Shown here: positions 4,945-58,861 of the stretch, one piece after another
How the letters are laid out: each line of letters opens with the position of its first letter
Numbering within the stretch: the stretch's first letter is position 1
Origin: a virus
IMG/VR virus record: IMGVR_UViG_3300032245_000902
Coordinates: 1 to 64,000 of that record
Direction: 5' to 3' (one strand)
DNA: 64,000 nucleotides
Notes under the pieces: generated by a model
What the model was told of the DNA's origin: nothing
Seen by the model: only the letters and a program-made list of their open reading frames with translations
The model's database searches: none
Translations under genes and position numbers: made by a program

Positions 4945-5331
4945 ATGGATTTTAATTTTACAACATTAAATTATGATATAGATTTTACATATTGTTTTCC
5001 ATATGGCCTACATGACATACCGCAAATTGAGGTTCTAAGTGGTGATTATCTTGGATTAAAATTCGATTTGAAATCTTCTGCTGTATCTAGTAAATATGAA
5101 AATAATCAAATTAAACATGCATTATCGTATGAATATGTTATACACAATATGTGGCTAAATGTATCAAAACAACAATTTGACGGTAAACATATCACATTAA
5201 ATGAAAAAGACCAAAATGTCATACACAATTTGGTGTACAATTACATCAAACATTTTACAGAAGAACAAACCAAAATTAGTGTATCACAAAGTTCAAATAT
5301 AGATAAAAAAATAACAAATTATATAGTATAA
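4945..5331 (+). CDS. Hypothetical protein
   Basis: This 128-residue protein is read from ATG 4945, with AGGA at 4931-4934 as ribosome binding site; a GTG at 4936 would overlap that site. It is Asn/Tyr/Ile-rich and soluble. The last codons overlap a late-promoter motif for the next gene, so it marks the end of the early-type block. No family recognised. Confidence 0.5.
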   Translation: MDFNFTTLNYDIDFTYCFPYGLHDIPQIEVLSGDYLGLKFDLKSSAVSSKYENNQIKHALSYEYVIHNMWLNVSKQQFDGKHITLNEKDQNVIHNLVYNYIKHFTEEQTKISVSQSSNIDKKITNYIV

Positions 5332-5334
5332 ATA
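5327..5334 (+). promoter_or_regulatory. Late promoter motif TATAAATA
   Basis: This is an exact match to the T4 late promoter octamer, read by sigma gp55 with gp33 and the clamp in T4. It overlaps the end of the upstream gene and lies 36 bases before the adhesin start at 5371, leaving room for a leader with GGGGCATTGG before the ATG. Confidence 0.7.
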
Positions 5335-5370: not shown

Positions 5371-6417
5371 ATGACAACACCATCGGGTCAAATATCATTA
5401 AGTCAAGTAAATACTGAACTAGGCTTTTCTGCGGCCGCAACGATTACAATGAATGATACTGTAGTTCGAAGCCTTGCTGGTGTGCCTAGTGGTCAGATTA
5501 CTATGGCCAACTTGCAAAATAAATCTTCAGCATGGACAGGCACAATCTCTAGCAACCAGCAGCAGATGGATCTTTATTCTTTTGCAACCGGTAACGGATA
5601 TCCAGGTTCTGGTGTAGCTCAAATTACAGTAGCACCAGGTGTTTATATTTGGTCTGACAGTACCGGCGCTGCAGCCATGACAATTCCTAGTGGTTTTGGT
5701 GCTGGTAATTTAACCCTTACTAATAACGGTTACATCATGGGTAAGGGAGGCCGAGGCGGTAACGGCTCTGTTCCTGAAAACGGACTTCCTGGTGGACCAG
5801 CAATTAGTATTAGTCAACCTGTGACCATTAACAACACTAACGGCAGCGCATACATTGGTGGTGGTGGTGGTGGCGCTGGTTCTGGTAGAGCAGCAACACC
5901 AGTCTATGCGGGTGGCGGTGGTGGTGTTGGTGGTGGTGATGGTGGAAATGGTGGTGGTACTCCTGGTGCCGGCGGTACTGGTGGTTCTATTGGAAATTCT
6001 GGTACACCAAACGGAAACGGTGCTGGTGGTGGCGGTGGTGGCGGTAGAGTATTTCCAGGTTCCGCATCAGCTGGCGGATTCACCGGTGGTCAGGGTTGGC
6101 CTGGTGGTGGTAATGGTGGTAGAGTAGGTGTTGTAAATCCACGAACCGCAACAATCTCACAAGCATCTGGTGGTGGCGGTGGTGGTTGGGGTGCTGCAGG
6201 AGGCCAAGGATTATTTTTAATTTCACCAAGCGGGCCAGCAAATGCATCGGGTATTGGTGGTTCCGGCAACAACGTTGGTGGACCCGCATTTGCTGGAGTT
6301 GGTGGAACTAGCAATCCTCGTCCTGGAGGTAGTGGTGGTCCAGCTGTAAGTTTAAATGGAAATTCAGTAACATGGGTTAGTGGCGACACTGCCAGAGTAT
6401 GGGGATCAGTATCATAG
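5371..6417 (+). CDS. Glycine-rich tail adhesin-like protein
   Basis: This 348-residue virion-type protein has three parts. Residues 1-55 form a module (Ser-Gly-Gln-Ile-x-Leu-Ser-x-Val-Asn-x-Glu-Leu-Gly) also seen at the start of the Cys/Asn-rich protein at 11567. The middle of about 70 residues is beta-rich. Residues from about 120 to 330 contain many Gly runs (five or six Gly in a row, Gly-Gly-x-Gly-Gly) with interspersed Asn, Ser and Pro. This layout resembles the polyglycine type II sandwich of gp38 adhesins that cap long tail fibres of T2-like and S16-like phages. A receptor-binding role is inferred. It has its own late promoter and opens the modification island. Base use is GC-richer here because of Gly codons. 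Confidence 0.65.
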   Translation: MTTPSGQISLSQVNTELGFSAAATITMNDTVVRSLAGVPSGQITMANLQNKSSAWTGTISSNQQQMDLYSFATGNGYPGSGVAQITVAPGVYIWSDSTGAAAMTIPSGFGAGNLTLTNNGYIMGKGGRGGNGSVPENGLPGGPAISISQPVTINNTNGSAYIGGGGGGAGSGRAATPVYAGGGGGVGGGDGGNGGGTPGAGGTGGSIGNSGTPNGNGAGGGGGGGRVFPGSASAGGFTGGQGWPGGGNGGRVGVVNPRTATISQASGGGGGGWGAAGGQGLFLISPSGPANASGIGGSGNNVGGPAFAGVGGTSNPRPGGSGGPAVSLNGNSVTWVSGDTARVWGSVS

Positions 6418-6435
6418 GAAAAAATAGGAAAAAAT

Positions 6436-7347
6436 ATGAAAAAATACACATTAGAAAGCCGTGTTACGGGATTAAGAGAAGAATTTGAGTCTTTTTCAGA
6501 TGCAGAAAAAAGACAAGAAGAACTTTATAAAGAATATATTTTAGATTCTCAGTATCTATTTAATATTTGTATACAAGAGTCTAAAAACGGACAAGATTGG
6601 TCACAAACACTTTGCGACAAAAATGGCAATCCAATTCGAATCATTGACGATTGGTTTTATCTACCAATTAATACCGGTATTTGGGGTGATGCGACTGTTA
6701 TGCAGTTGGGCCCTACAGTTTCTATGGGGACACAAAAAGAAGATGATATTTGGTTGTGGATTGACAACGGTCCCAGTTATAATTCCGGTGGTCAAGGACT
6801 GTTAAGCCAATACGAAAACGCTTCTGGTAAGGTTCTTCTTGGTGGATTAGGTTTGGGTATGTTAGCACTCTTATTAGATAATAAACCAGAGGTTACAGAG
6901 GTTACCGTTGTTGAAATAAATCAAAACGTAATTGATGCATTTAATTCCAATAATTGGAAGACAAGTAAAGTTAATATTGTTTGTGCAGATATTTTAACGT
7001 TTGAAGGATCTGGTTATGATTGGGTGTTATTGGACCATTACAACCAAACACAAAGTATTGAACTATACAATACTTATTTGGAACATATGTCTATCATTAA
7101 TCAAAATATTTCATATAATAATTTAGATTTATTTGCTTGGGAAGATGCATACTATTATTGGTTGGAACAAGAAGGTAAAGAACGTGGATTAGAAAGTTAT
7201 ACCGAGTTTGCTAATACTCTAAACCTACCAATATATTCGATTGAAACTCTAAATAAATATTATAATGCTTATCTATCTAATGGATTACCTGTCAACACCA
7301 ATTTAGTAAACGCTTTAAGATCGGTGTATGAATTAAACAACGAATAA
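6436..7347 (+). CDS. SAM-dependent methyltransferase-like protein
   Basis: This 303-residue protein has a class I methyltransferase/spermidine-synthase-like core. Motif I GGLGLG is at residues 136-141, the acidic ribose-binding Glu (VTVVEIN) is at residue 160, and Cys-Ala-Asp with downstream Trp-Val-Leu-Leu-Asp resembles motifs II-IV. Residues 1-130 are a separate, Trp-containing domain I cannot name. The C-terminal 70 residues, helical with many Tyr, are also additional. A target cannot be read from sequence; the position between the adhesin-like protein and five oxygenases suggests protein or small-molecule modification. The start is supported by a purine-rich leader (AGGAAAAAA). Confidence 0.7.
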   Translation: MKKYTLESRVTGLREEFESFSDAEKRQEELYKEYILDSQYLFNICIQESKNGQDWSQTLCDKNGNPIRIIDDWFYLPINTGIWGDATVMQLGPTVSMGTQKEDDIWLWIDNGPSYNSGGQGLLSQYENASGKVLLGGLGLGMLALLLDNKPEVTEVTVVEINQNVIDAFNSNNWKTSKVNIVCADILTFEGSGYDWVLLDHYNQTQSIELYNTYLEHMSIINQNISYNNLDLFAWEDAYYYWLEQEGKERGLESYTEFANTLNLPIYSIETLNKYYNAYLSNGLPVNTNLVNALRSVYELNNE

Positions 7348-7372
7348 CATATGTGAAGAAGGTATTTTTATT

Positions 7373-8011
7373 ATGGCAACTAAAAAACAATCAACAAAAT
7401 CTCCATCAACACCTTCAGAAATTTTGAATTCTTATGGTGCTTTATTTTGTAAAGATATTGTGTCCAAAGAAATGAGTAATTTTTTAACTCATGTATTACT
7501 AAGAAAATATGGTGTTGATGGTAGAGAAGGTGATGAACAAATACCAAATGCTCTTTCTTTAATTGATCATGATTTATTTTTAGAAACGTTACAAGAACAA
7601 ATTTGGCCAAAATTGGAATATATTTTAGGTGAAGAATTACTTCCAACATATTCTTATTCAAGACTATACAGTAACGGAGATATCTTAGAAAAACACACCG
7701 ATAGGCCGGCATGTGAAATAAGTATCACGGTACAATTGGGACGGTCACATAACTATGCGTGGCCAATTTATATGGGTGATTATAGATATGATTTGGTGGA
7801 AGGTGATGGTGTAATTTATAGAGGTTGTGATGTAGCTCATTGGCGTAATCCTTGTGATGGGCCAGATAATTACTATTCCGGCCAAGTGTTTTTCCATTTT
7901 GTAAGAAAAAACGGAAAAAACGCAAAACAGTTTTGTGATCCATCCAACAGAAAAGTAAATCCAAAAACTTTTTTTGTTAAAAATAGAACTCACCTAATGA
8001 ATTTAAAATGA
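7373..8011 (+). CDS. 2OG-Fe(II) oxygenase family protein
   Basis: This 212-residue protein contains a double-stranded beta-helix dioxygenase core. His108-Thr-Asp110 supplies two iron ligands, His156 in Asp-Val-Ala-His-Trp is the third, and Arg178 is the likely 2-oxoglutarate contact. The Tyr-Arg-Gly-Cys-Asp ... His-Trp-Arg-Asn segment is typical of a phage branch of the prolyl-hydroxylase-like group. The Lys/Ser/Thr-rich first 15 residues look unstructured. The start has AGAAGG 9 bases upstream. It is the first of five oxygenase-like genes in 7.4 kb; substrate unknown. Confidence 0.75.
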   Translation: MATKKQSTKSPSTPSEILNSYGALFCKDIVSKEMSNFLTHVLLRKYGVDGREGDEQIPNALSLIDHDLFLETLQEQIWPKLEYILGEELLPTYSYSRLYSNGDILEKHTDRPACEISITVQLGRSHNYAWPIYMGDYRYDLVEGDGVIYRGCDVAHWRNPCDGPDNYYSGQVFFHFVRKNGKNAKQFCDPSNRKVNPKTFFVKNRTHLMNLK

Positions 8012-8039
8012 ATTTTATGATTGAATATATAGAAAGATA

Positions 8040-8639
8040 ATGATGATTGCACCTATTCCTCCAAGAACACATACTGTAGAAGCTCCAGTAGCATATTGGG
8101 ATAGTTTTCTAACCCAACAAGACGTTGATACCATTTTATCTTTGCCGCAATGGCATGATTGTGAACCCGGTCAAATTGGTAAAACCAACGATGGAATTAT
8201 AGATACAAACATACGAAATAGTGGCATTGTTTGGTTTACTCCTTGTGAAAAAACAAACCATATCTGGTTAAAAATTACTAATGCTATCGCAGAAGTGAAC
8301 AATCAATTTTTTCACTTTGATTTAAAAGGATGTTACGAACCAGCACAATTATCAATTTATAGAGCTAAAGATAAAGAACATTATGGTTGGCATGTGGACC
8401 ATGGTATGGATACTTTGACTCCACGAAAACTATCAATGTCACTCTTATTAAGTGATACTAATGAATTTAAAGGTGGAGAACTTGAAGTTAAGACAATTAA
8501 TGATGATCCGTTAACACTAGACCAACGGCAGGGTAGAGCCTGGTTCTTTCCTTCATACACACTACATAGAGTAACACCGGTGACAAAAGGTGTGAGGCGT
8601 TCATTGGTTCTTTGGGTTGGTGGGCCTCCTTTTAAATAA
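8040..8639 (+). CDS. 2OG-Fe(II) oxygenase, PKHD/prolyl hydroxylase type
   Basis: This 199-residue protein closely matches the PKHD-type hydroxylase pattern. His118-Val-Asp120 and His176 (Leu-His-Arg-Val-Thr-Pro-Val) are the iron triad, and Arg187 (Gly-Val-Arg-Arg-Ser-Leu) binds 2-oxoglutarate. The Phe-Lys-Gly-Gly-Glu-Leu turn before the distal strand is also characteristic. The reaction expected is hydroxylation of a peptidyl or free substrate with 2-oxoglutarate and O2. ATG codons at 8040 and 8043 are both possible starts. It is a paralogue of the enzyme at 57722. Confidence 0.85.
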   Translation: MMIAPIPPRTHTVEAPVAYWDSFLTQQDVDTILSLPQWHDCEPGQIGKTNDGIIDTNIRNSGIVWFTPCEKTNHIWLKITNAIAEVNNQFFHFDLKGCYEPAQLSIYRAKDKEHYGWHVDHGMDTLTPRKLSMSLLLSDTNEFKGGELEVKTINDDPLTLDQRQGRAWFFPSYTLHRVTPVTKGVRRSLVLWVGGPPFK

Positions 8640-8653
8640 TATGAAAGCACATA

Positions 8654-10108
8654 ATGATATTTGAAATACACGCAGAAAGAAGTGCCAACGATAAAAAGAT
8701 TTTTTATTACGATAACATGACCAACACACTAAAAGATAGTGATGGCAATGTTTTTGAATATCCAAAAGAATCCTACTCAAAACCCGAGCAAAAAGAATTC
8801 AAACCATTTGATAAAAATAATCCATTGGTTAAATCGAAGTTAATAACTCATTTAAAGATTCAAATGGGTTTAAGTTGTAATTATTCATGTGATTATTGTT
8901 CCCAAAAATTCGTAGAAAGACCAAAAGAAACATCCAAAAAAGATATTGATGCATTTTTGGAAAAACTGGAAGTATTGGAGTTTGATGAACAAAAAGGATT
9001 AAAAATTGAATTTTGGGGTGGTGAACCTTTTGTTTATTGGAAAACCATGAAACCTTTGGCCGAAGCTTTAAGAGAAAAGTTTACAACATGGGTCAGAAAA
9101 CCACAATTCTCAGTAATTACAAACGGATCAATTTTAACCGATGATATTATTGATTGGTTAATGATGATGAATTTTAGTGTATCAATATCCCATGATGGAC
9201 CAGGTCAATATGTTAGGGGTCCGGATCCTTTCGATGATCCGGAACAAAAGAATAGACTTATTGGTTTCTATCGCATGATGACCAGATTGAAAAAAAGTAT
9301 TAGTTTCAATCCAATGATGAATTCTAAAAACAAAAGTCGTAAAGAAGTTCGTGACTGGTTTGTTAATATGATAGGTGATGAAAATGTCCAATTGGGTGAA
9401 GGTGGTATTGTAGATGCTTATGATGAAGATGGCATCACAAACTCATTACAATCTTTACAAGAACATTTTGAATATCGTAGAACTTCATTCTCTGATTTCT
9501 ACACTATGGGTCAAAAACTAAACTTTGTTGGCCAATTCAGTAAGATTGATGATTTAACTCGCAGAATATTGACGCATGAAGAAGCCAAATATCTGAATCA
9601 AAAATGTGGTATGGATGATGAACACACATTGGCAATTGATCTGCGTGGTAATGTTATGACCTGTCAGAATGTGAGTGCGTTAGAAGATTCTAAGAATGGT
9701 GAATCACATTTGGGCGGCACATTAGATGATTATGAAAATGTTAAATTAAAATCTTCTACACATTGGTCGAATCGTAAAGAATGTTCTGGTTGTCCAGTTC
9801 TTCATATTTGCAAAGGTGCTTGTATGTTCCTAGACAAGAAGTTTTGGGATATCTCCTGTGCAAATGCCTACTCAGATAATGTTCCATTGTTTGCTATATC
9901 TCTAACTAATATAACCAATGGATATGTTCCAACATTAATTAAGGCTGAAGGTTTACCATTGGAACGACAAGATATTTTTGGTACTATCTTTGAACATAAA
10001 GAAGATATCAAAAAGAAAATTATTCCAATTAAAGTTGTTAGTGAAAAAATTGGTGAGATTGAAGGTGTTGAGGTTTACGGCCGTGCGAAAATTGTTGAAA
10101 CAAAATGA
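8654..10108 (+). CDS. Radical SAM protein with SPASM-type C-terminal domain
   Basis: This 484-residue protein has the radical SAM signature Cys75-x3-Cys79-x2-Cys82 and the GGEP motif at about residues 122-125. The C-terminal region from about 310 to 420 holds the Cys pattern of a SPASM auxiliary iron-sulfur domain: an isolated Cys, MTCQN, Cys-x-x-Cys-Pro, Cys-x-Gly-x-Cys and a final Cys. Known SPASM enzymes include sulfatase maturases and peptide-crosslinking RiPP enzymes acting on Cys- or Asp-containing substrates. An N-terminal extension of about 60 residues precedes the barrel. The nearest Cys-rich candidate substrate is the protein at 11567. The stop overlaps the first desaturase start (ATGA), so the two are coupled. 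Confidence 0.85.
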   Translation: MIFEIHAERSANDKKIFYYDNMTNTLKDSDGNVFEYPKESYSKPEQKEFKPFDKNNPLVKSKLITHLKIQMGLSCNYSCDYCSQKFVERPKETSKKDIDAFLEKLEVLEFDEQKGLKIEFWGGEPFVYWKTMKPLAEALREKFTTWVRKPQFSVITNGSILTDDIIDWLMMMNFSVSISHDGPGQYVRGPDPFDDPEQKNRLIGFYRMMTRLKKSISFNPMMNSKNKSRKEVRDWFVNMIGDENVQLGEGGIVDAYDEDGITNSLQSLQEHFEYRRTSFSDFYTMGQKLNFVGQFSKIDDLTRRILTHEEAKYLNQKCGMDDEHTLAIDLRGNVMTCQNVSALEDSKNGESHLGGTLDDYENVKLKSSTHWSNRKECSGCPVLHICKGACMFLDKKFWDISCANAYSDNVPLFAISLTNITNGYVPTLIKAEGLPLERQDIFGTIFEHKEDIKKKIIPIKVVSEKIGEIEGVEVYGRAKIVETK

Positions 10109-10833
10109 TTGACGTAATATTATATGTTGTATTGGTATCACATATAACAATGGCTTTTGTGTCACTCTATTTGCATAGACACCTAACACACAGACACTTT
10201 ATATTAAATAATACTTTTAGACATATCATTCGTTTTTATTTGTGGTTAACCGATGGAGTTATTGCAAAGACATGGGTTGCACAACACAGAAAACACCATA
10301 GATATACGGATGTTCAAGGTGATCCACATTCACCTTTAATTATTGGAAAATGGAAGGTAATTTATACCAGTCTAATACCAAATTATGTTAAGTTATATGG
10401 TTATTATGATACCGATTGGGCACTAGAATATTATAGTAAAGGAACTCCGGATGATTGGATAGAAAAAAATATCTATGAAAAATATCCTAGGGTTGGTTTA
10501 AATATATTTTTGTTAATTAATATTTGTTTGTTCGGATTGGTTCCTGGATTTTTGGCATGGTTAGTTCATCTATTTTGGGTACCTTTTTGCACCACAGCCT
10601 CAATTACAGGTTTTGCTCATTTGTTTGGTTACAAACATCCCGATTCATCCGATAATAGCCACAATTTATTTCCAATAGGTGTATTGTTATGTGGAGATGA
10701 ATTACATAATAATCATCATAAGCAGCCTAATAATCCAAATTTTGCACACCGTTGGTTTGAATTTGATTTAACATATTGGTATGCTAGAATTTTTGCAAAG
10801 ATGGGTCTTTTGACCTTTACAAAAAATGATTGA
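10105..10833 (+). CDS. Membrane fatty-acid desaturase, copy 1
   Basis: This 242-residue integral membrane di-iron desaturase of the acyl-CoA/acyl-lipid type has all three histidine boxes: His24-x4-His29, His61-x2-His64-His65 and His201-x2-His204-His205. Hydrophobic segments flank them (about 5-22, 40-55, 132-165). It would introduce a double bond into host lipid acyl chains at the membrane, needing host ferredoxin or similar. Lipid desaturases are known as auxiliary metabolic genes of some cyanophages. It overlaps the radical SAM gene by 4 bp and copy 2 by 8 bp. Confidence 0.9.
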   Translation: MIDVILYVVLVSHITMAFVSLYLHRHLTHRHFILNNTFRHIIRFYLWLTDGVIAKTWVAQHRKHHRYTDVQGDPHSPLIIGKWKVIYTSLIPNYVKLYGYYDTDWALEYYSKGTPDDWIEKNIYEKYPRVGLNIFLLINICLFGLVPGFLAWLVHLFWVPFCTTASITGFAHLFGYKHPDSSDNSHNLFPIGVLLCGDELHNNHHKQPNNPNFAHRWFEFDLTYWYARIFAKMGLLTFTKND

Positions 10834-11545
10834 ATATTTCATTTTGTATGTATTGATTACAACACATATCACAACAGTATTTTTTAGTTTGTATGTACAT
10901 AGGAGTTTAGCACACAAGCAATTTGAATTTCATCCTAAAATGGTTTCATTTATAAAATTTTGGTTGTGGTTGACCGATGGTTCCGGTGTGAGAGAATGGG
11001 TTGCAATACACCACGACCATCATAAGTATTCGGATAAAAAAGGTGACCCACATTTCTCATTTGTATCTGGATCAATATGGAACAGATTAAAGTCTATATT
11101 TGTTGTGTCGTTAAAATCCATATTTTTAGGTTATAGAAACTTTGCTACCGACCAACAAATTCAGTCATATGCAAATCACGTGTCTGGTGATTGGACTGAA
11201 AAATATCAAAGAATTGGTATTTTTATTTTACTAATTTTGAATATTATTCTGTTTGGTTATTGGGGCATATTGTCGTGGTTAATACAGATATCTTGGGCAA
11301 CCATTTGGTTAACAGTAATTGTGGCTATTGGAGCTCACCATTTTGGTTATCGTGAAAACGATTCTGATGATAACAGTAGAAATTTATGGCCTTTGGCAAT
11401 ACTGGTTGCAGGTGAAGAATTACACCACAATCACCACAAAAATACGAAAAATCCAAACTATAGAAATAAATGGTTTGAATTAGACTTAGGATGGCAATAC
11501 ATAAAAGTTCTAAGATTATTAGGATTAATTAAGATAAATACTTGA
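10826..11545 (+). CDS. Membrane fatty-acid desaturase, copy 2
   Basis: This 239-residue paralogue of the upstream desaturase has the boxes His25-x4-His30, His62-x2-His65-His66 and His200-x2-His203-His204, all intact. The two copies share layout and motifs (Trp-Leu-Thr-Asp-Gly, Gly-Asp-Pro-His, Asn-Leu-x-Pro) but have diverged widely in the loop between boxes 2 and 3, which suggests different regiospecificity or substrates rather than a recent duplication. The gene starts inside the end of copy 1. Confidence 0.9.
   Translation: MIEYFILYVLITTHITTVFFSLYVHRSLAHKQFEFHPKMVSFIKFWLWLTDGSGVREWVAIHHDHHKYSDKKGDPHFSFVSGSIWNRLKSIFVVSLKSIFLGYRNFATDQQIQSYANHVSGDWTEKYQRIGIFILLILNIILFGYWGILSWLIQISWATIWLTVIVAIGAHHFGYRENDSDDNSRNLWPLAILVAGEELHHNHHKNTKNPNYRNKWFELDLGWQYIKVLRLLGLIKINT
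11533..11540 (+). promoter_or_regulatory. Late promoter motif GATAAATA
   Basis: This is a seven-of-eight match to TATAAATA at the end of desaturase copy 2, 26 bases before the ATG of the Cys/Asn-rich gene and followed by AAAAAGGTG as ribosome binding site. It suggests that the Cys/Asn-rich protein is made late, like virion proteins. Confidence 0.55.
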
Positions 11546-11566
11546 AAATAGTAAAAAGGTGAAAAA

Positions 11567-12469
11567 ATGACATTACCAGCTTCAGGACAAATAGGAATAT
11601 CAGATATTAATGTGGAAATAGGTCAAGCACCAACCTATTCCTCAAGCCTGAATTTTTTAAATAATCTGATTAAACCGGCCCAAAGACCAGCAGTTCCGGC
11701 CATTTCAGGTTTTTATTCTAAATCCTACTACCAAAGCACCACCGAAGGAAATTGTAATGCTGGAAATTGCAATTGTTCTGCTAATTGTGGTAATGTCAAC
11801 TGCAATCAATGTGCTTATGTCAGCACAATTAATTGTTCAAATTGTGATACACAATCTTGGTTACAAAGTGGAACAAACTGTGCATGTACCTACAATTGCA
11901 CATATGCTGAAACAAGTTATGCGTGTAATTGTACCTGTGCTTGTAGTAAAATTATTTGTACCAAATTATTCCAAATGGGTATGATGCCTTACGGTATATT
12001 TGTTGCAGACCAAGAATATGGTGAATGGCTTAAGAAGAATGACCGTGTTGTTTACAGAGGATATATTCGTTGGGCTAAAACTGTTACTGCATGGATGGAC
12101 GAAAAGGGTCCAGATTTCATGTTATGGGTATCTAAAGAAAACCGTAAACAAAAACAAAAAGAAGCAACCACAAAGTGGGCTCATTTAATTGTAACCCCTT
12201 GGTCTCACCACATGGCATATCTAATGGGTGCAGTTAAAACTGATGATGAAGTTGGTCGTTTATTAATGAAGATTGGTCGACCAATTTGCCGAGCTGTATT
12301 CTTACTACCAAAAGACTATGAATTGGGTTTATTGGGTTCATACATGATGTGGACACTATGTTTAGGTAGTTATGGCCTATCTAGTGCATATGTAAAAACC
12401 AAGACAAAATTAAAATCATTAAAAAATAATTTTATCAATAAAATTAAATTACTTTATCAAGGTCAATAA
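11567..12469 (+). CDS. Cys/Asn-rich protein with adhesin-like N-terminus
   Basis: This 300-residue protein has three parts. Residues 1-55 resemble the N-terminal module of the adhesin-like protein at 5371 (Pro-x-Ser-Gly-Gln-Ile-x-x-Ser-x-x-Asn-x-Glu-x-Gly). Residues 63-131 hold 16 Cys, ten of them directly preceded by Asn (Asn-Cys-Asn-x-Gly-Asn-Cys-Asn-Cys type), which resembles no metal-binding or EGF family I know. Residues 132-300 form a helical, Trp- and Met-rich domain ending in a Lys-rich tail; I recall a similar C-terminal domain in other aquatic phage proteins but not its role. It has its own late promoter and lies between a radical SAM enzyme and three oxygenase-like genes. It may be a modified virion surface protein; this is inference. 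Confidence 0.6.
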   Translation: MTLPASGQIGISDINVEIGQAPTYSSSLNFLNNLIKPAQRPAVPAISGFYSKSYYQSTTEGNCNAGNCNCSANCGNVNCNQCAYVSTINCSNCDTQSWLQSGTNCACTYNCTYAETSYACNCTCACSKIICTKLFQMGMMPYGIFVADQEYGEWLKKNDRVVYRGYIRWAKTVTAWMDEKGPDFMLWVSKENRKQKQKEATTKWAHLIVTPWSHHMAYLMGAVKTDDEVGRLLMKIGRPICRAVFLLPKDYELGLLGSYMMWTLCLGSYGLSSAYVKTKTKLKSLKNNFINKIKLLYQGQ

Positions 12470-12470
12470 T

Positions 12471-12827
12471 ATGACAAACTTTACTGCCGCTAATACAGAA
12501 ATTTTATCACCTAAAGATTTTGTCATACAAGATGTTGATGTTTATACTGAACACATGGATTATTATTTTGATGTTCAAATAAATGAAACAGCAAAACAAT
12601 TTTCTCCAGAAGAAAAAGATGAAATGTTTCACATGTTTCATGAACATTCTGATATCATTAAAAAATTAATTCACGCAAAAATTCCTTTGGTTGAATATGT
12701 GTTAGGAAATCCTTGGCCTCCAAAAGAAATTTTTGAAGATCCAAAATATGCACACATTAAAGTAAGAGAGTATGACTGTTGGTTAATTGCTGCATATGAA
12801 GAATGGAAAAAGTCTAAAGGGCTATAA
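12471..12827 (+). CDS. Hypothetical protein of the modification island
   Basis: This 118-residue acidic, helical protein has His/Met-rich segments near residues 45-55 (Met-Phe-His-Met-Phe-His-Glu-His) and several Trp and Tyr. It starts 2 bases after the Cys/Asn-rich gene, so the two are surely co-transcribed. The His cluster could bind a metal. No family recognised; a partner or chaperone of the upstream protein is possible. Confidence 0.5.
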   Translation: MTNFTAANTEILSPKDFVIQDVDVYTEHMDYYFDVQINETAKQFSPEEKDEMFHMFHEHSDIIKKLIHAKIPLVEYVLGNPWPPKEIFEDPKYAHIKVREYDCWLIAAYEEWKKSKGL

Positions 12828-12841
12828 TTAAAAATAATATT

Positions 12842-13432
12842 ATGAACATAGTGAGAAATGATTGGTGGACTACACCAGTCTGGGAAATACAAACAGACTT
12901 TGACGAAAAATTTAATAATAATTTACTCAGAGAAGCAAATTCAAGTAACCACATTAATGTATGGAATAATGATACACCATGTATCAATGAACTGAAACAA
13001 TATACTATAGATATTGTAACACAACTGGCATCTCCTTACATCTCTCAAAACTTCCGAGATTTTACATTTTGGCACACTAATGGGTGGATAAATTATCTAC
13101 ACCCAGGTAAACATATGCCTATACATGGCCATGGTGGACCTAAGATTGCTTTGACATATTACATTAAAGCTCAAGAAAATTCTGGTGATTTACTTCTGAT
13201 TGATCCTAGAGGTGGTTGTGATTGGGACAATGGTACTGATGGAGTAAACGGTACAAAGTTCAAAAGAATTAAACCAGCAGAAAGTAAATTGGTATTTTTT
13301 CCTGGTTTTGTTTTACACACAATAGAATCCAATCAATCAAGTGAAACACGAGTATCTTTGTCCAGCAATTTAGGAACATTTGATAGTGATAATGTAACAA
13401 AGAAATTATACGATTCACTTAAAAATGAATAA
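12842..13432 (+). CDS. 2OG-Fe(II) oxygenase family protein (HxH type)
   Basis: This 196-residue protein fits the putative 2OG-Fe(II) oxygenase group with a His-x-His first motif: Tyr-Leu-His-Pro-Gly-Lys-His-Met-Pro-Ile-His95-Gly-His97, then an Asp-Pro-Arg-Gly stretch, Phe-Phe-Pro-Gly-Phe-Val-Leu-His159 and Arg170-Val-Ser-Leu-Ser. The Tyr-Tyr-Ile strand and Trp-x-Asn-Tyr start are as in the family. Substrates of this group are mostly unknown. It overlaps the next gene by 8 bp. Confidence 0.75.
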   Translation: MNIVRNDWWTTPVWEIQTDFDEKFNNNLLREANSSNHINVWNNDTPCINELKQYTIDIVTQLASPYISQNFRDFTFWHTNGWINYLHPGKHMPIHGHGGPKIALTYYIKAQENSGDLLLIDPRGGCDWDNGTDGVNGTKFKRIKPAESKLVFFPGFVLHTIESNQSSETRVSLSSNLGTFDSDNVTKKLYDSLKNE

Positions 13433-13973
13433 TCTATTTTGTAAACTAAACAAAAATTTTCTGATTAATGATTATGTTGTCTATGATATGCAACAACAAT
13501 TTGGTCAAGAAGATAATGGTGAATTCATTGGTATTCGGTATAGTAATGTTGATTTTAAAAATAAAAATGATATTATGAATATAATACCTAGAGCTTATCA
13601 CTCTTGTTTTTTTATGACAATCATGCGGATTAATACAACAATACCACCTCACACCGATAGTGGTATCAAATCAACAATTAATTTTTATATTAAAACAGAT
13701 GATTGTATCACACAATTTTATAAGTATAAAACAAACACACCAAAAAAACGGCAAATTGAAAATCAAACAAACGGTTACATATTTGATATAAATGATTTGG
13801 AAGAAATGGATTCTTTTCTTGCCAAACCTACCGAAGCATGGGTATTAAATGTATCAGAACCACATTCAGTTATACCAAAATATGAATTTAAAGATAGATT
13901 AGCTATTGCCTTATCTTCAGAATTAGATTATAATACGGTGTGTGATATATTAAAAGAAGAAGGACACCTGTAA
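13425..13973 (+). CDS. 2OG-Fe(II) oxygenase-like protein
   Basis: This 182-residue protein is more divergent but has a recognisable cupin/dioxygenase pattern: Pro-Pro-His76-Thr-Asp78-Ser-Gly, a central beta region, Trp-Val-Leu-Asn-Val-Ser-Glu-Pro-His147-Ser-Val and Arg158-Leu-Ala-Ile-Ala-Leu. The positions match a His-x-Asp...His...Arg site of the aspartyl/asparaginyl hydroxylase-like branch. It lies between two clearer oxygenase genes, overlapping them by 8 and 1 bp, which supports the assignment. Confidence 0.6.
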   Translation: MNNLFCKLNKNFLINDYVVYDMQQQFGQEDNGEFIGIRYSNVDFKNKNDIMNIIPRAYHSCFFMTIMRINTTIPPHTDSGIKSTINFYIKTDDCITQFYKYKTNTPKKRQIENQTNGYIFDINDLEEMDSFLAKPTEAWVLNVSEPHSVIPKYEFKDRLAIALSSELDYNTVCDILKEEGHL

Positions 13974-14755
13974 TGTTTTATGAAAAATTAGATTTTATTG
14001 AGTTTGATTTGGAAAAATTAAGAGATGATGTGAGAAACCATGTCTTTACTTTAGGCAACCAAGTATTACAAGGTGAAGAATTTGAAACTCCACAATATCA
14101 TGGATTTGGTGGTTGGAGTTTGTTAAGTAGAACTGGTGAATGGCAAGATGGTTTTGAATTCTTCCAAACTGGTGAGAATGAGGAATTTCAAGATGATTTT
14201 TTCCCTAAAGGTCAAAATAATTTTAAAGTATTAAAATATTTAAATGTTGCACATTCAATGGAGTATAAAAATCCTACACAGGCTTGTGTTGGTGAAATAA
14301 AAAATGTGATAGACCAAATTGAATCTTATGGTTTTTATCCTAGAAGAGCAAGAGTAACTTGCTTGCAAGCTGGTTGTAAATCATTGGTGCATAGTGATGG
14401 ACCACAATCAGAATATATTGCTCGTATTCACATACCTTTGTTTACAAATAAAAAGTGTGTTTTCATATGTGATGGTGTGGATTTACACATGGAAGCCGGA
14501 TCAGTTTACATGGTGTGGGTAAACACATGGCACCAAATAAGAAATGATTCAGATGAAGATAGATATCACATTATCATTGATGCTTATGATACAAAACATA
14601 TAACAAAGAATTTTAAATATGAAGGTGATATTAAACAGTTGGAACAATATGCAGAAGAATATAGAAAAAATTTAAATGAAACAATTGTTACTGAAGAAGA
14701 TATTATAAAATTTGAAAAGATAAAAGAAAAGTATATAACAAAAAATGACATTTAA
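13973..14755 (+). CDS. Aspartyl/asparaginyl beta-hydroxylase-like oxygenase
   Basis: This 260-residue protein has the Asp/Asn hydroxylase core at about residues 125-205: His140-Ser-Asp142, then Arg-Ile-His-Ile-Pro-Leu, a Gly turn, Trp-Val-Asn-Thr-Trp-His187-Gln-Ile-Arg-Asn and Arg197. A Lys/Glu-rich helical tail of about 50 residues follows. In animals this family hydroxylates Asp and Asn of Cys-rich EGF-like repeats, which is suggestive because a Cys/Asn-rich protein is encoded 1.5 kb upstream. Whether this phage enzyme does so is inference. The stop overlaps the exonuclease start by 11 bp. Confidence 0.75.
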   Translation: MFYEKLDFIEFDLEKLRDDVRNHVFTLGNQVLQGEEFETPQYHGFGGWSLLSRTGEWQDGFEFFQTGENEEFQDDFFPKGQNNFKVLKYLNVAHSMEYKNPTQACVGEIKNVIDQIESYGFYPRRARVTCLQAGCKSLVHSDGPQSEYIARIHIPLFTNKKCVFICDGVDLHMEAGSVYMVWVNTWHQIRNDSDEDRYHIIIDAYDTKHITKNFKYEGDIKQLEQYAEEYRKNLNETIVTEEDIIKFEKIKEKYITKNDI

Positions 14756-57721: not shown

Positions 57722-58297
57722 ATGAGAGGTGATTGGTGCTATTTTGGCAGGCATTTTTCGAAAGAAACCTGCCAAAAAATACTTGATTTAGGATTAAAAA
57801 AATCTTCTAAAGATGCTGTCTTGGGTGTTGATGGTAATACCCAAGACAATGATTGGCGAAGAAGTAAAGTTCGTTTTATTCAAGCAAATGATCCTGAATT
57901 TCAATTTCTTTTTGATGAAATTTGGAAAATGGGTATGCAAGCCAACCGTGATTGGTTCAATTTTCATGTCACCAATTTGTCATTTATTCAACTAGCCGAA
58001 TATGATTCTTCATATCAAGGCGAATACAAAAAACACCACGATGTATTCTGGATTAACAACGATAAATACCATCGTAAGTTAACTTGTGTTATTCAATTGT
58101 CTGACCCCAATGATTATGAAGGTGGTGATTTTGAGTTGTTTGATTTGACAGGTGGTCAATATCCAAATAAAGAAGATTTGCGCCAACAAGGTACAGCAAT
58201 ATTCATTCCTTCTTTCACTCCACATCAAGCACATCCAGTAACAAAAGGTACGAGATATTCTATTGCAGTTTGGTTTGAAGGTCCTAAATGGGTATAA
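57722..58297 (+). CDS. 2OG-Fe(II) oxygenase, prolyl hydroxylase-like
   Basis: This 191-residue protein is a PKHD-type oxygenase. His105-x-Asp107 (Lys-Lys-His-His-Asp) and His168 (Pro-Ser-Phe-Thr-Pro-His) are the iron ligands. Arg178 (Lys-Gly-Thr-Arg-Tyr-Ser) binds 2-oxoglutarate, and Tyr-Glu-Gly-Gly-Asp-Phe-Glu-Leu is the typical turn. It aligns well with the enzyme at 8040. It lies 1.7 kb before two collagen-like fibres, so prolyl or similar hydroxylation of those is an obvious hypothesis, though their Pro sits in the X position of Gly-Pro-Thr. Confidence 0.85.
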   Translation: MRGDWCYFGRHFSKETCQKILDLGLKKSSKDAVLGVDGNTQDNDWRRSKVRFIQANDPEFQFLFDEIWKMGMQANRDWFNFHVTNLSFIQLAEYDSSYQGEYKKHHDVFWINNDKYHRKLTCVIQLSDPNDYEGGDFELFDLTGGQYPNKEDLRQQGTAIFIPSFTPHQAHPVTKGTRYSIAVWFEGPKWV

Positions 58298-58300
58298 AAT

Positions 58301-58857
58301 ATGAATGATTATGAGTTTGAAAAAGATTATTGGGGTGATTGTTGTAATACATTTGATGAGGACCAAAAGCATTATGTTTATGGCCGTTTGATGGGATTAC
58401 ATCGAGAACATTATTCATTTGATGTTTTTGGTAAATCAATTCTTGATATTGGTGGTGGTCCAACCTCTATGTTATTAAAAACTAAAAACCTTATAAAAGG
58501 TAAAGTGGTTGATCCAATTAAATATCCAAATTGGACAATGCTGCGTTATTTGGAAAAAAATATAGAAGTGAAAGTTGAACCGGGTGAAAATTTAAATGAG
58601 ATTGATAATAGTTGGGATGAAGTTTGGATCTACAACTGTTTACAACATGCTGAAGATCCAGAAAAAATTATACATAAGGCTTTAAAATCTGGCAAAGTAT
58701 TAAGATTTTTTGAATGGATTGATGTGCCTGCACACGAAGGACATCCGCATGAACTTACAGAAGAAAATTTAAATAAATGGATTGGTGCAAGAGGTATGAC
58801 TACAAGATTATCCGAATCTGGATGTTATGGCAGAGCATATTATGGAGTATTCACACG

Positions 58858-58861
<4 letters not shown>
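58301..58861 (+). CDS. Class I SAM methyltransferase
   Basis: This 186-residue protein has motif I Ile-Leu-Asp-Ile-Gly-Gly-Gly-Pro-Thr-Ser near residue 48, a Val-Val-Asp-Pro acidic loop near 71, and Trp-Asp-Glu-Val-Trp-Ile-Tyr-Asn-Cys-Leu-Gln-His as motif IV, followed by the His-Ala x Asp-Pro-Glu segment. The N-terminal Asp-Tyr-Trp-Gly-Asp-Cys-Cys-Asn-Thr-Phe stretch is a recurring feature of sugar-cluster and small-molecule methyltransferases. It overlaps the glycosyltransferase gene by 4 bp (ATGA), suggesting that they act on the same glycan or target. Confidence 0.8.

Follow-up and report, generated by a model that had tools for sequence, protein, structure and literature searches.

Bases 5371 to 14755 of the viral DNA analysed here carry a run of genes on one strand that includes a Cys/Asn-rich protein and a SPASM-type radical S-adenosylmethionine enzyme (rSAM). 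The whole stretch, referred to as the window, comprises bases 1-64000 of a 90,915-base record (IMGVR_UViG_3300032245_000902), and judging by its baseplate gene it belongs among the T4-like phages, close to pelagiphage HTVC008M and cyanophages. A preliminary description had proposed that the locus is a dedicated system for maturing the Cys/Asn-rich protein and perhaps also a Gly-rich adhesin-like protein. The positions and the strand that it gave are borne out for all genes; "mostly overlapping" was too strong a phrase for an arrangement in which overlaps occur at four of the eleven internal junctions, with every gap being 28 bp or less. The Cys/Asn-rich protein and the rSAM are an obligate pair, and the module in the window is a particular form of a more general trait, namely phage tail-fibre proteins with an (X-Cys)n tail, in which X is usually asparagine.

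The Cys/Asn-rich protein consists of a fibre-type N-terminal module (approximately residues 1-25), a Cys/Asn module (approximately residues 60-131) and an all-helical C-terminal domain (residues 129-298). The Cys/Asn module, with the sequence GNCNAGNCNC...NCACTYNC...ACNCTCACSKIIC, has C63, N110, C111, C124, C126 and C131 as its conserved positions in an alignment of 35 relatives. Across 144 relatives the residue preceding a cysteine is asparagine in 66% of cases (background 10%), alanine in 12% and aspartate in 6%. In the AlphaFold2 model the module appears disordered, with a predicted local distance difference test score (pLDDT) below 50, and the C-terminal domain is helical. A stretch unable to fold until covalently modified would be expected to score this low, though a low score in itself is no proof of this. 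The helical domain has no match in the PDB at E ≤ 0.001 and its matches are limited to models from uncultured phages or unnamed viruses. The N-terminal module of some 24 residues is shared with the Gly-rich protein (hhalign 94%, 1e-7, residues 1-24), residues 1-71 of which match the distal subunit of a phage long tail fibre (tblastn). As to the Gly-rich protein being a second target, no tie to the enzymes was found, except that at two loci, L049 and L052, a Gly-rich stretch and a Cys module lie within one protein.

Searching IMG/VR with the rSAM returned 80 loci, and nearly all of the close relatives have a Cys/Asn-rich homologue adjoining the enzyme. The most conserved decapeptide of the module, NCNCACTYNC, used as a DNA query, gave 77 stretches, of which three (L010, L020 and L049) were already known to carry the rSAM; of the 74 newly numbered readable loci, 68 contain it, and a profile search of the whole records found it for the other six as well (6/6). 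A looser search with CNCNCNC as DNA gave at least 120 stretches, from which a tail was accepted if the motif was in frame, within 60 residues of the end of the open reading frame (ORF) and followed by at least 3.5 kb of sequence. Among the matches listed, the rSAM lies downstream on the same strand in 33 of 38 such cases, the other five being spurious-looking ORFs of 32-108 residues, and in none of 49 out-of-frame controls (Fisher 5e-19, ignoring relatedness). Fourteen tails from these listed matches seemed to be without the enzyme; for eight of them it turned up at another place in the record, and the remaining six are in records of 5-19 kb, mostly ending soon after the tail gene. When both scans are pooled, 14 of 20 seeming exceptions have the rSAM elsewhere in the record, as against none of 28 control records. 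In four records, those of L108 and L195 (160,850 and 81,132 bases) and of L099 and L177, ORFs of 67-79 residues have a near-terminal CNCNCNC, and the radical-SAM matches in these records, three at most, are more distant in type.

The converse also holds for most enzymes, with an X-Cys-tailed protein near 106 of 123 dereplicated rSAMs, a set that partially corrects for the related phages included in the other counts. In bacterial genomes a tailed protein was present on the same strand at 58 of the 79 loci found only by their enzyme, and a sample of 401 related genomes gave seven with the enzyme, of which two are further loci that are also tailed and three others re-find earlier loci. The pair is also present at prophage-like loci of Burkholderiales and Rhodospirillales. 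Some of the bacterial records are contigs of metagenome-assembled genomes (MAGs), for which host labels may be wrong. Five such contigs labelled Bacteroidetes, Akkermansia or Verrucomicrobia (L281, L286, L296, L304 and L287) have enzymes clustering with those of Burkholderiales and phages, and are possibly misbinned phage contigs. A search for carriage on plasmids gave no match. The gene order flips between lineages, the tail gene being upstream of the rSAM in most and downstream in the clade of the window, and yet the pair is kept. The preliminary description had asked whether related phages regularly carry the Cys/Asn-rich gene without the enzymes; the rSAM was found in every testable contig. 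Nothing on the pairing of tail and rSAM was found in the open-access full-text literature.

The rSAM matches PF04055 and, through its SPASM domain, TIGR04085 (35.1 bits against a cut-off of 27). The cysteines of the CX3CX2C cluster motif (C75, C79 and C82) and the seven of the SPASM domain (C318, C337, C377, C380, C386, C390 and C402) are invariant in alignments of 24 and of 36 sequences, the larger of which covers diverse members. Together with the dedicated substrate gene nearby, these are the features by which SPASM peptide maturases are recognised. The AlphaFold2 model has a pLDDT of 87.6 and its top matches in the PDB are the anaerobic sulfatase-maturating enzyme (anSME) and CteB, with further matches to ChlB, TigE and SkfB. 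The closest curated models are those of the ranthipeptide maturase PapB and of the QhpD type, while the epimerase YydG matches over the radical-SAM core alone. Radical-SAM proteins of Campylobacter phages were considered as members of the family and rejected, as the match spans only the radical-SAM core; in the one region seen, that of phage F379, the gene lies beside replication and hypothetical genes.

Two branches of the rSAM family without X-Cys tails adjoin genes for a YcaO-nitroreductase (YcaO 1e-41) or for a C39-peptidase ABC transporter and HlyD, which are the typical company of ribosomally synthesised and post-translationally modified peptides (RiPPs). Because these tail-less relatives keep such company, it would seem likely that a RiPP maturase was recruited for phage fibre tips. 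The tailed phages do not themselves have the form of a RiPP natural product, with a short precursor, removable leader and export, and no transporter was seen among the conserved neighbours of their rSAM. The relatives in Variovorax, Ramlibacter, Sulfuritalea and Sulfuricella (L339:5394-7691, L337:5402-7720, L329:3401-7705 and L333:5588-7747), which adjoin YcaO-nitroreductase fusions or C39-ABC/HlyD exporters, suggest undescribed RiPP clusters. No Cys-rich precursor was found at the YcaO or C39-ABC loci.

The runs of X-Cys alternation are of 3-10 repeats and the proteins that carry them, of approximately 70-1080 residues, differ in their bodies. Some are collagen-like fibres, some match PHROG tail-fibre families (5e-89 and 3e-50 for Asn-Cys-tailed proteins, with collagen repeats in some) and others are short proteins with the N-terminal module of the Gly-rich protein. 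The tail itself has three fates: it usually forms a free C-terminus, or it leads into a Hint domain, or, in the clade of the window, into the helical C-terminal domain. In gp028 of Achromobacter phage JWF, encoded two genes upstream of the rSAM, the (Asn-Cys)n run stands directly before the Hint cysteine (PF05203, 3e-12), and at several prophage-like loci an X-Cys tail likewise runs directly into a Hint domain; the matches to this domain are sub-threshold in L223 and L341. The protein of the window has the Asn-Cys run in common with such Hint-bearing tail proteins, but has the helical domain and no Hint domain. On the tree of the enzymes the widespread state is a free-ended tail encoded upstream of the enzyme, with the Hint forms scattered and the helical-domain form with its reversed gene order making up approximately one clade; two members of this clade that were scored as "none" by the tail pattern do encode the protein. 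The helical domain was ruled out as the tie between protein and enzyme. It is found in a fibre-like protein of Synechococcus phage SynMITS9220M01 (L085:6669-8519) after long poly-Pro and poly-Arg runs, in a record without an rSAM match. A fibre-type N-terminal module and a Gly-rich relative in the same genome also recall the Gly-rich tip adhesins (gp38) of T-even phages, but the window has in addition the Cys module and its maturase, and the similarity of the Gly-rich protein to the Pfam GP38 family is sub-threshold.

The remaining genes of the locus are listed in Table 1. Most of the family assignments made in the preliminary description agree with family matches, the weaker ones being the methyltransferase (Pfam matches all sub-threshold, PHROG methyltransferase match 5e-7), ox1, which matches only PHROGs labelled "ferrochelatase", and ox4, with no significant match in the family-library scans; ox1 and ox4 are assigned by their H-x-D...H pattern only. 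For the putative hydroxylase ox5 the score against PF05118 is 40.7 bits (cut-off 22.6). The expectation that late promoters precede both candidate targets was not upheld in the 64-kb window, where TATAAATA occurs as a single copy at 5327-5334, 36 bp upstream of the Gly-rich gene, and not before 11567. With 8.7 occurrences expected by chance, the motif seems depleted.

Table 1. Genes and features of the fibre-protein and rSAM locus. Fractions give presence among 47 distinct loci of the local type with sufficient downstream sequence. 2OG, 2-oxoglutarate.
Feature	Position	Strand	Basis and remarks
Gly-rich adhesin-like protein	5371-6417	+	N-terminal module in common with Cys/Asn-rich protein
Methyltransferase-like gene	6436-7347	+	Local, not conserved with rSAM-substrate pair
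Oxygenase-like ox1	7373-8011	+	H-x-D...H pattern; local, not conserved with pair
Oxygenase-like ox2	8040-8639	+	PF13640 1e-14; local, not conserved with pair
SPASM radical-SAM enzyme (rSAM)	8654-10108	+	PF04055 and TIGR04085; proposed maturase, common to all forms
First DesA-type desaturase	10105-10833	+	PF00487/DesA family 2e-73
Second desaturase	10826-11545	+	40% identity to first desaturase
Cys/Asn-rich protein, proposed substrate	11567-12469	+	Alignment of 35 relatives; co-occurrence with rSAM
Cys/Asn module, proposed modification site	11744-11962	+	Conserved positions; Asn before Cys enriched
118-residue protein, no assigned function	12471-12827	+	Often between substrate and oxygenases in clade; 28/47
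2OG-Fe(II) oxygenase ox3, clade-specific accessory	12842-13432	+	PF13759 1e-12; 41/47
Oxygenase-like ox4, clade-specific accessory	13425-13973	+	HxD...H pattern by eye; 45/47
Asp/Asn beta-hydroxylase-type ox5, clade-specific accessory	13973-14755	+	PF05118 2.8e-10; 46/47

The oxygenases ox3, ox4 and ox5 track the helical-domain clade. Loci returned with ox5 as the query also have the rSAM and the substrate wherever the contig reaches them, and the one locus lacking ox5, L265, has Hint-like sequence in place of the helical domain. Since ox5 is absent from this locus and from the loci with free-ended tails, the rSAM is the enzyme common to all forms. The desaturases, which sit as an insert (10105-11545) between the rSAM and substrate genes, occur at 9 of the 47 loci and are probably not core parts; the methyltransferase, ox1 and ox2 are nearly absent at other loci and were likewise ruled out. 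Of the dedicated maturation system proposed for the island, what stands is the core of rSAM and Cys/Asn-rich protein, with ox3-ox5 belonging to the local form, and what falls away are the desaturases, the methyltransferase, ox1 and ox2.

In other branches of the family the neighbours of the rSAM include 2OG oxygenases, a halogenase-like protein (Pfam 6.5e-29), a PP-loop ATPase and a second radical-SAM protein. A tryptophan-halogenase-like gene lies near the rSAM in phages with free-ended tails at L066:10409-11617 and eight other loci, and a PP-loop or asparagine-synthase-like ATPase gene recurs at L350:3232-4341 and 14 others. Between the fibre and rSAM genes of L096 (3206-4042) and 51 other loci there is an unannotated family of approximately 280 residues, which may serve in recognition or as a chaperone. 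Two phage contigs have, directly downstream of the rSAM, genes of the heme-oxygenase family and for TRAP-type DctP solute-binding proteins (L078:9350-9880 and L079:9678-10619). Elsewhere in the window, at 57722-58861, one further gene resembling 2OG oxygenases and one resembling methyltransferases were seen by eye directly 3' of a 1792-residue fibre-like protein.

Taken together, we favour as the probable explanation that a RiPP-type maturase cross-links fibre tips, presumably by thioethers, with the island serving a T4-like phage as a cassette for fibre-tip maturation. The Cys/Asn-rich protein would belong to the tail-fibre tip, with a Cys module that is disordered on translation, and the rSAM would bind it in the host cytoplasm and act on its Asn-Cys or X-Cys dipeptides. 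That the enzyme modifies the Cys/Asn module is very probable. Most likely, thioether bridges would link the cysteine sulfurs with carbons of adjacent residues, disulfides not being expected to form in the host cytoplasm. In this way a floppy Cys-rich stretch may become a rigid knob that withstands reduction, placed at the fibre tip and facing the host surface. In other phages the tail would be the natural C-terminus or be freed by self-cleavage of the subsequent Hint domain, and in the clade of the window, where the helical domain follows the tail, ox3-ox5 may add hydroxyls. The likeliest chemistry is thioether formation, since the closest relatives include cross-linking SPASM enzymes, the cysteine is constant and there is a precedent in the Cys-Asn beta-thioether formed in NxxcA by the SPASM enzyme NxxcB, with six Cys-Asp thioethers in freyrasin (PMC8326336); even so, we regard the case for thioether chemistry as evenly balanced. 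As in the ranthipeptides/SCIFF and NxxcA systems (PapB, CteB, NxxcB), a SPASM maturase adjoins a Cys-rich substrate and CteB is a top fold match, but here the substrate is a phage fibre with tandem X-Cys repeats and not a small peptide, and the enzyme falls far under the PapB cut-off. A role at the tip or in adsorption is probable. The pairing, the fibre context of the relatives and the intact enzyme are computed, and from these we infer the reaction, the type of bond and the adsorption role.

Several points weigh against this explanation. The tip position derives from the relatives, the Cys/Asn-rich protein of the window having no tail-fibre family match in the family-library scans, and the rSAM scores below every listed curated equivalog cut-off (for PapB, NF047865, 84.6 of 340 bits). 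As alanine, aspartate or glutamine sometimes precede the cysteine, asparagine is not the sole possible acceptor. All of the co-occurrence could be co-inheritance, which is disfavoured by the changes in gene order and by the unrelated fibre bodies. A further alternative, that unrelated accessory genes travel together in a host-recognition island, would fit with the variable desaturases, methyltransferase and other neighbours of the window, and with the passages cited from PMC7029224, where variable host-recognition clusters of Pelagimyophages are described with radical-SAM cassettes. These clusters are similar by description, as islands of T4-like aquatic phages, and the cited passages give neither a substrate nor a function for the cassettes. 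For the core pair, hitch-hiking is contradicted by an obligate two-way pairing that spans T4-like and JWF-like phages and prophage-like loci despite inverted gene order, and as a full account it is hardly credible; for the desaturases, methyltransferase, ox1 and ox2 it is still likely.

Other chemistries can be set against cross-linking. If the tails were to bind a metal or Fe-S cluster, or to tie the chains of trimeric fibres together by disulfide knots, the rSAM would act elsewhere. Some spike tips bind iron, the CXC runs are metallothionein-like and collagen-like fibres can use C-terminal cysteine knots, but this does not account for the presence of the same SPASM enzyme with each tail that could be tested, unrelated as the fibre bodies are, and we consider it improbable. 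Epimerisation, or some other alteration of the alpha-carbon at every second residue, leading to a polytheonamide-like helix in which D and L residues alternate, would account for the strict X-Cys alternation over 3-10 repeats, with asparagine at 66% of X positions as the polytheonamide core has asparagine at every second residue, and the tolerance of alanine, aspartate or glutamine suits alpha-carbon chemistry better than chemistry at the asparagine side chain. The proteusins, made by a radical-SAM enzyme (PoyD for polytheonamide) and further tailoring enzymes, are similar in this spacing. Here, however, cysteine alternates with asparagine and it is the cysteine that is conserved, the alternation is interrupted in the module of the window, no proteusin leader was seen, and the nearest solved or curated relatives are cross-linkers or anSME, YydG matching only the core; epimerisation is of low probability. 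Oxidation of cysteine to formylglycine or a related aldehyde, by which fibres could bond covalently with amines of the host surface, is suggested by anSME being the top structural match and acting on a cysteine of a larger protein, and by the annotation of the JWF enzyme as sulfatase-maturating in one record. At the position of anSME Asp277, which we take to be the catalytic base, the family has a nearly invariant glutamine, and no sulfatase or C-x-P/A-x-R site was seen. The family also lacks the eighth SPASM cysteine (Cys261 of anSME), which is missing in AlbA, QhpD, ThnB and MftC as well (PMC5491770), and formylglycine formation is very improbable.

The range of bacteria infected by a phage is decided by its tail-fibre tips, which are usually regarded as plain polypeptide, at times glycosylated or cleaved. 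Cross-linking by the rSAM may go further, in that one enzyme family would convert the (Asn-Cys)n termini of many fibres with no relation to each other into a regular, covalently bonded ladder or helix of a kind not so far known in biology, which lineage-specific tailoring would diversify (hydroxylation in the clade of the window; halogenase, PP-loop ATPase or second radical-SAM genes elsewhere) as a receptor-binding and host-range device; in this full form the proposal is speculative and rather unlikely. The pairing adds a large group of new radical-SAM enzymes that would act on repetitive tails, and offers a possible explanation for the orphan "radical SAM" and "2OG oxygenase" genes of phage host-recognition islands. 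If tips are indeed widely modified by covalent, enzyme-dependent chemistry, receptor binding would have to be predicted from sequence in a different way, fibres that misfold when expressed alone could be accounted for, and the chemistry of ribosomal natural products would be used by viruses as a receptor-binding device and host-range determinant.

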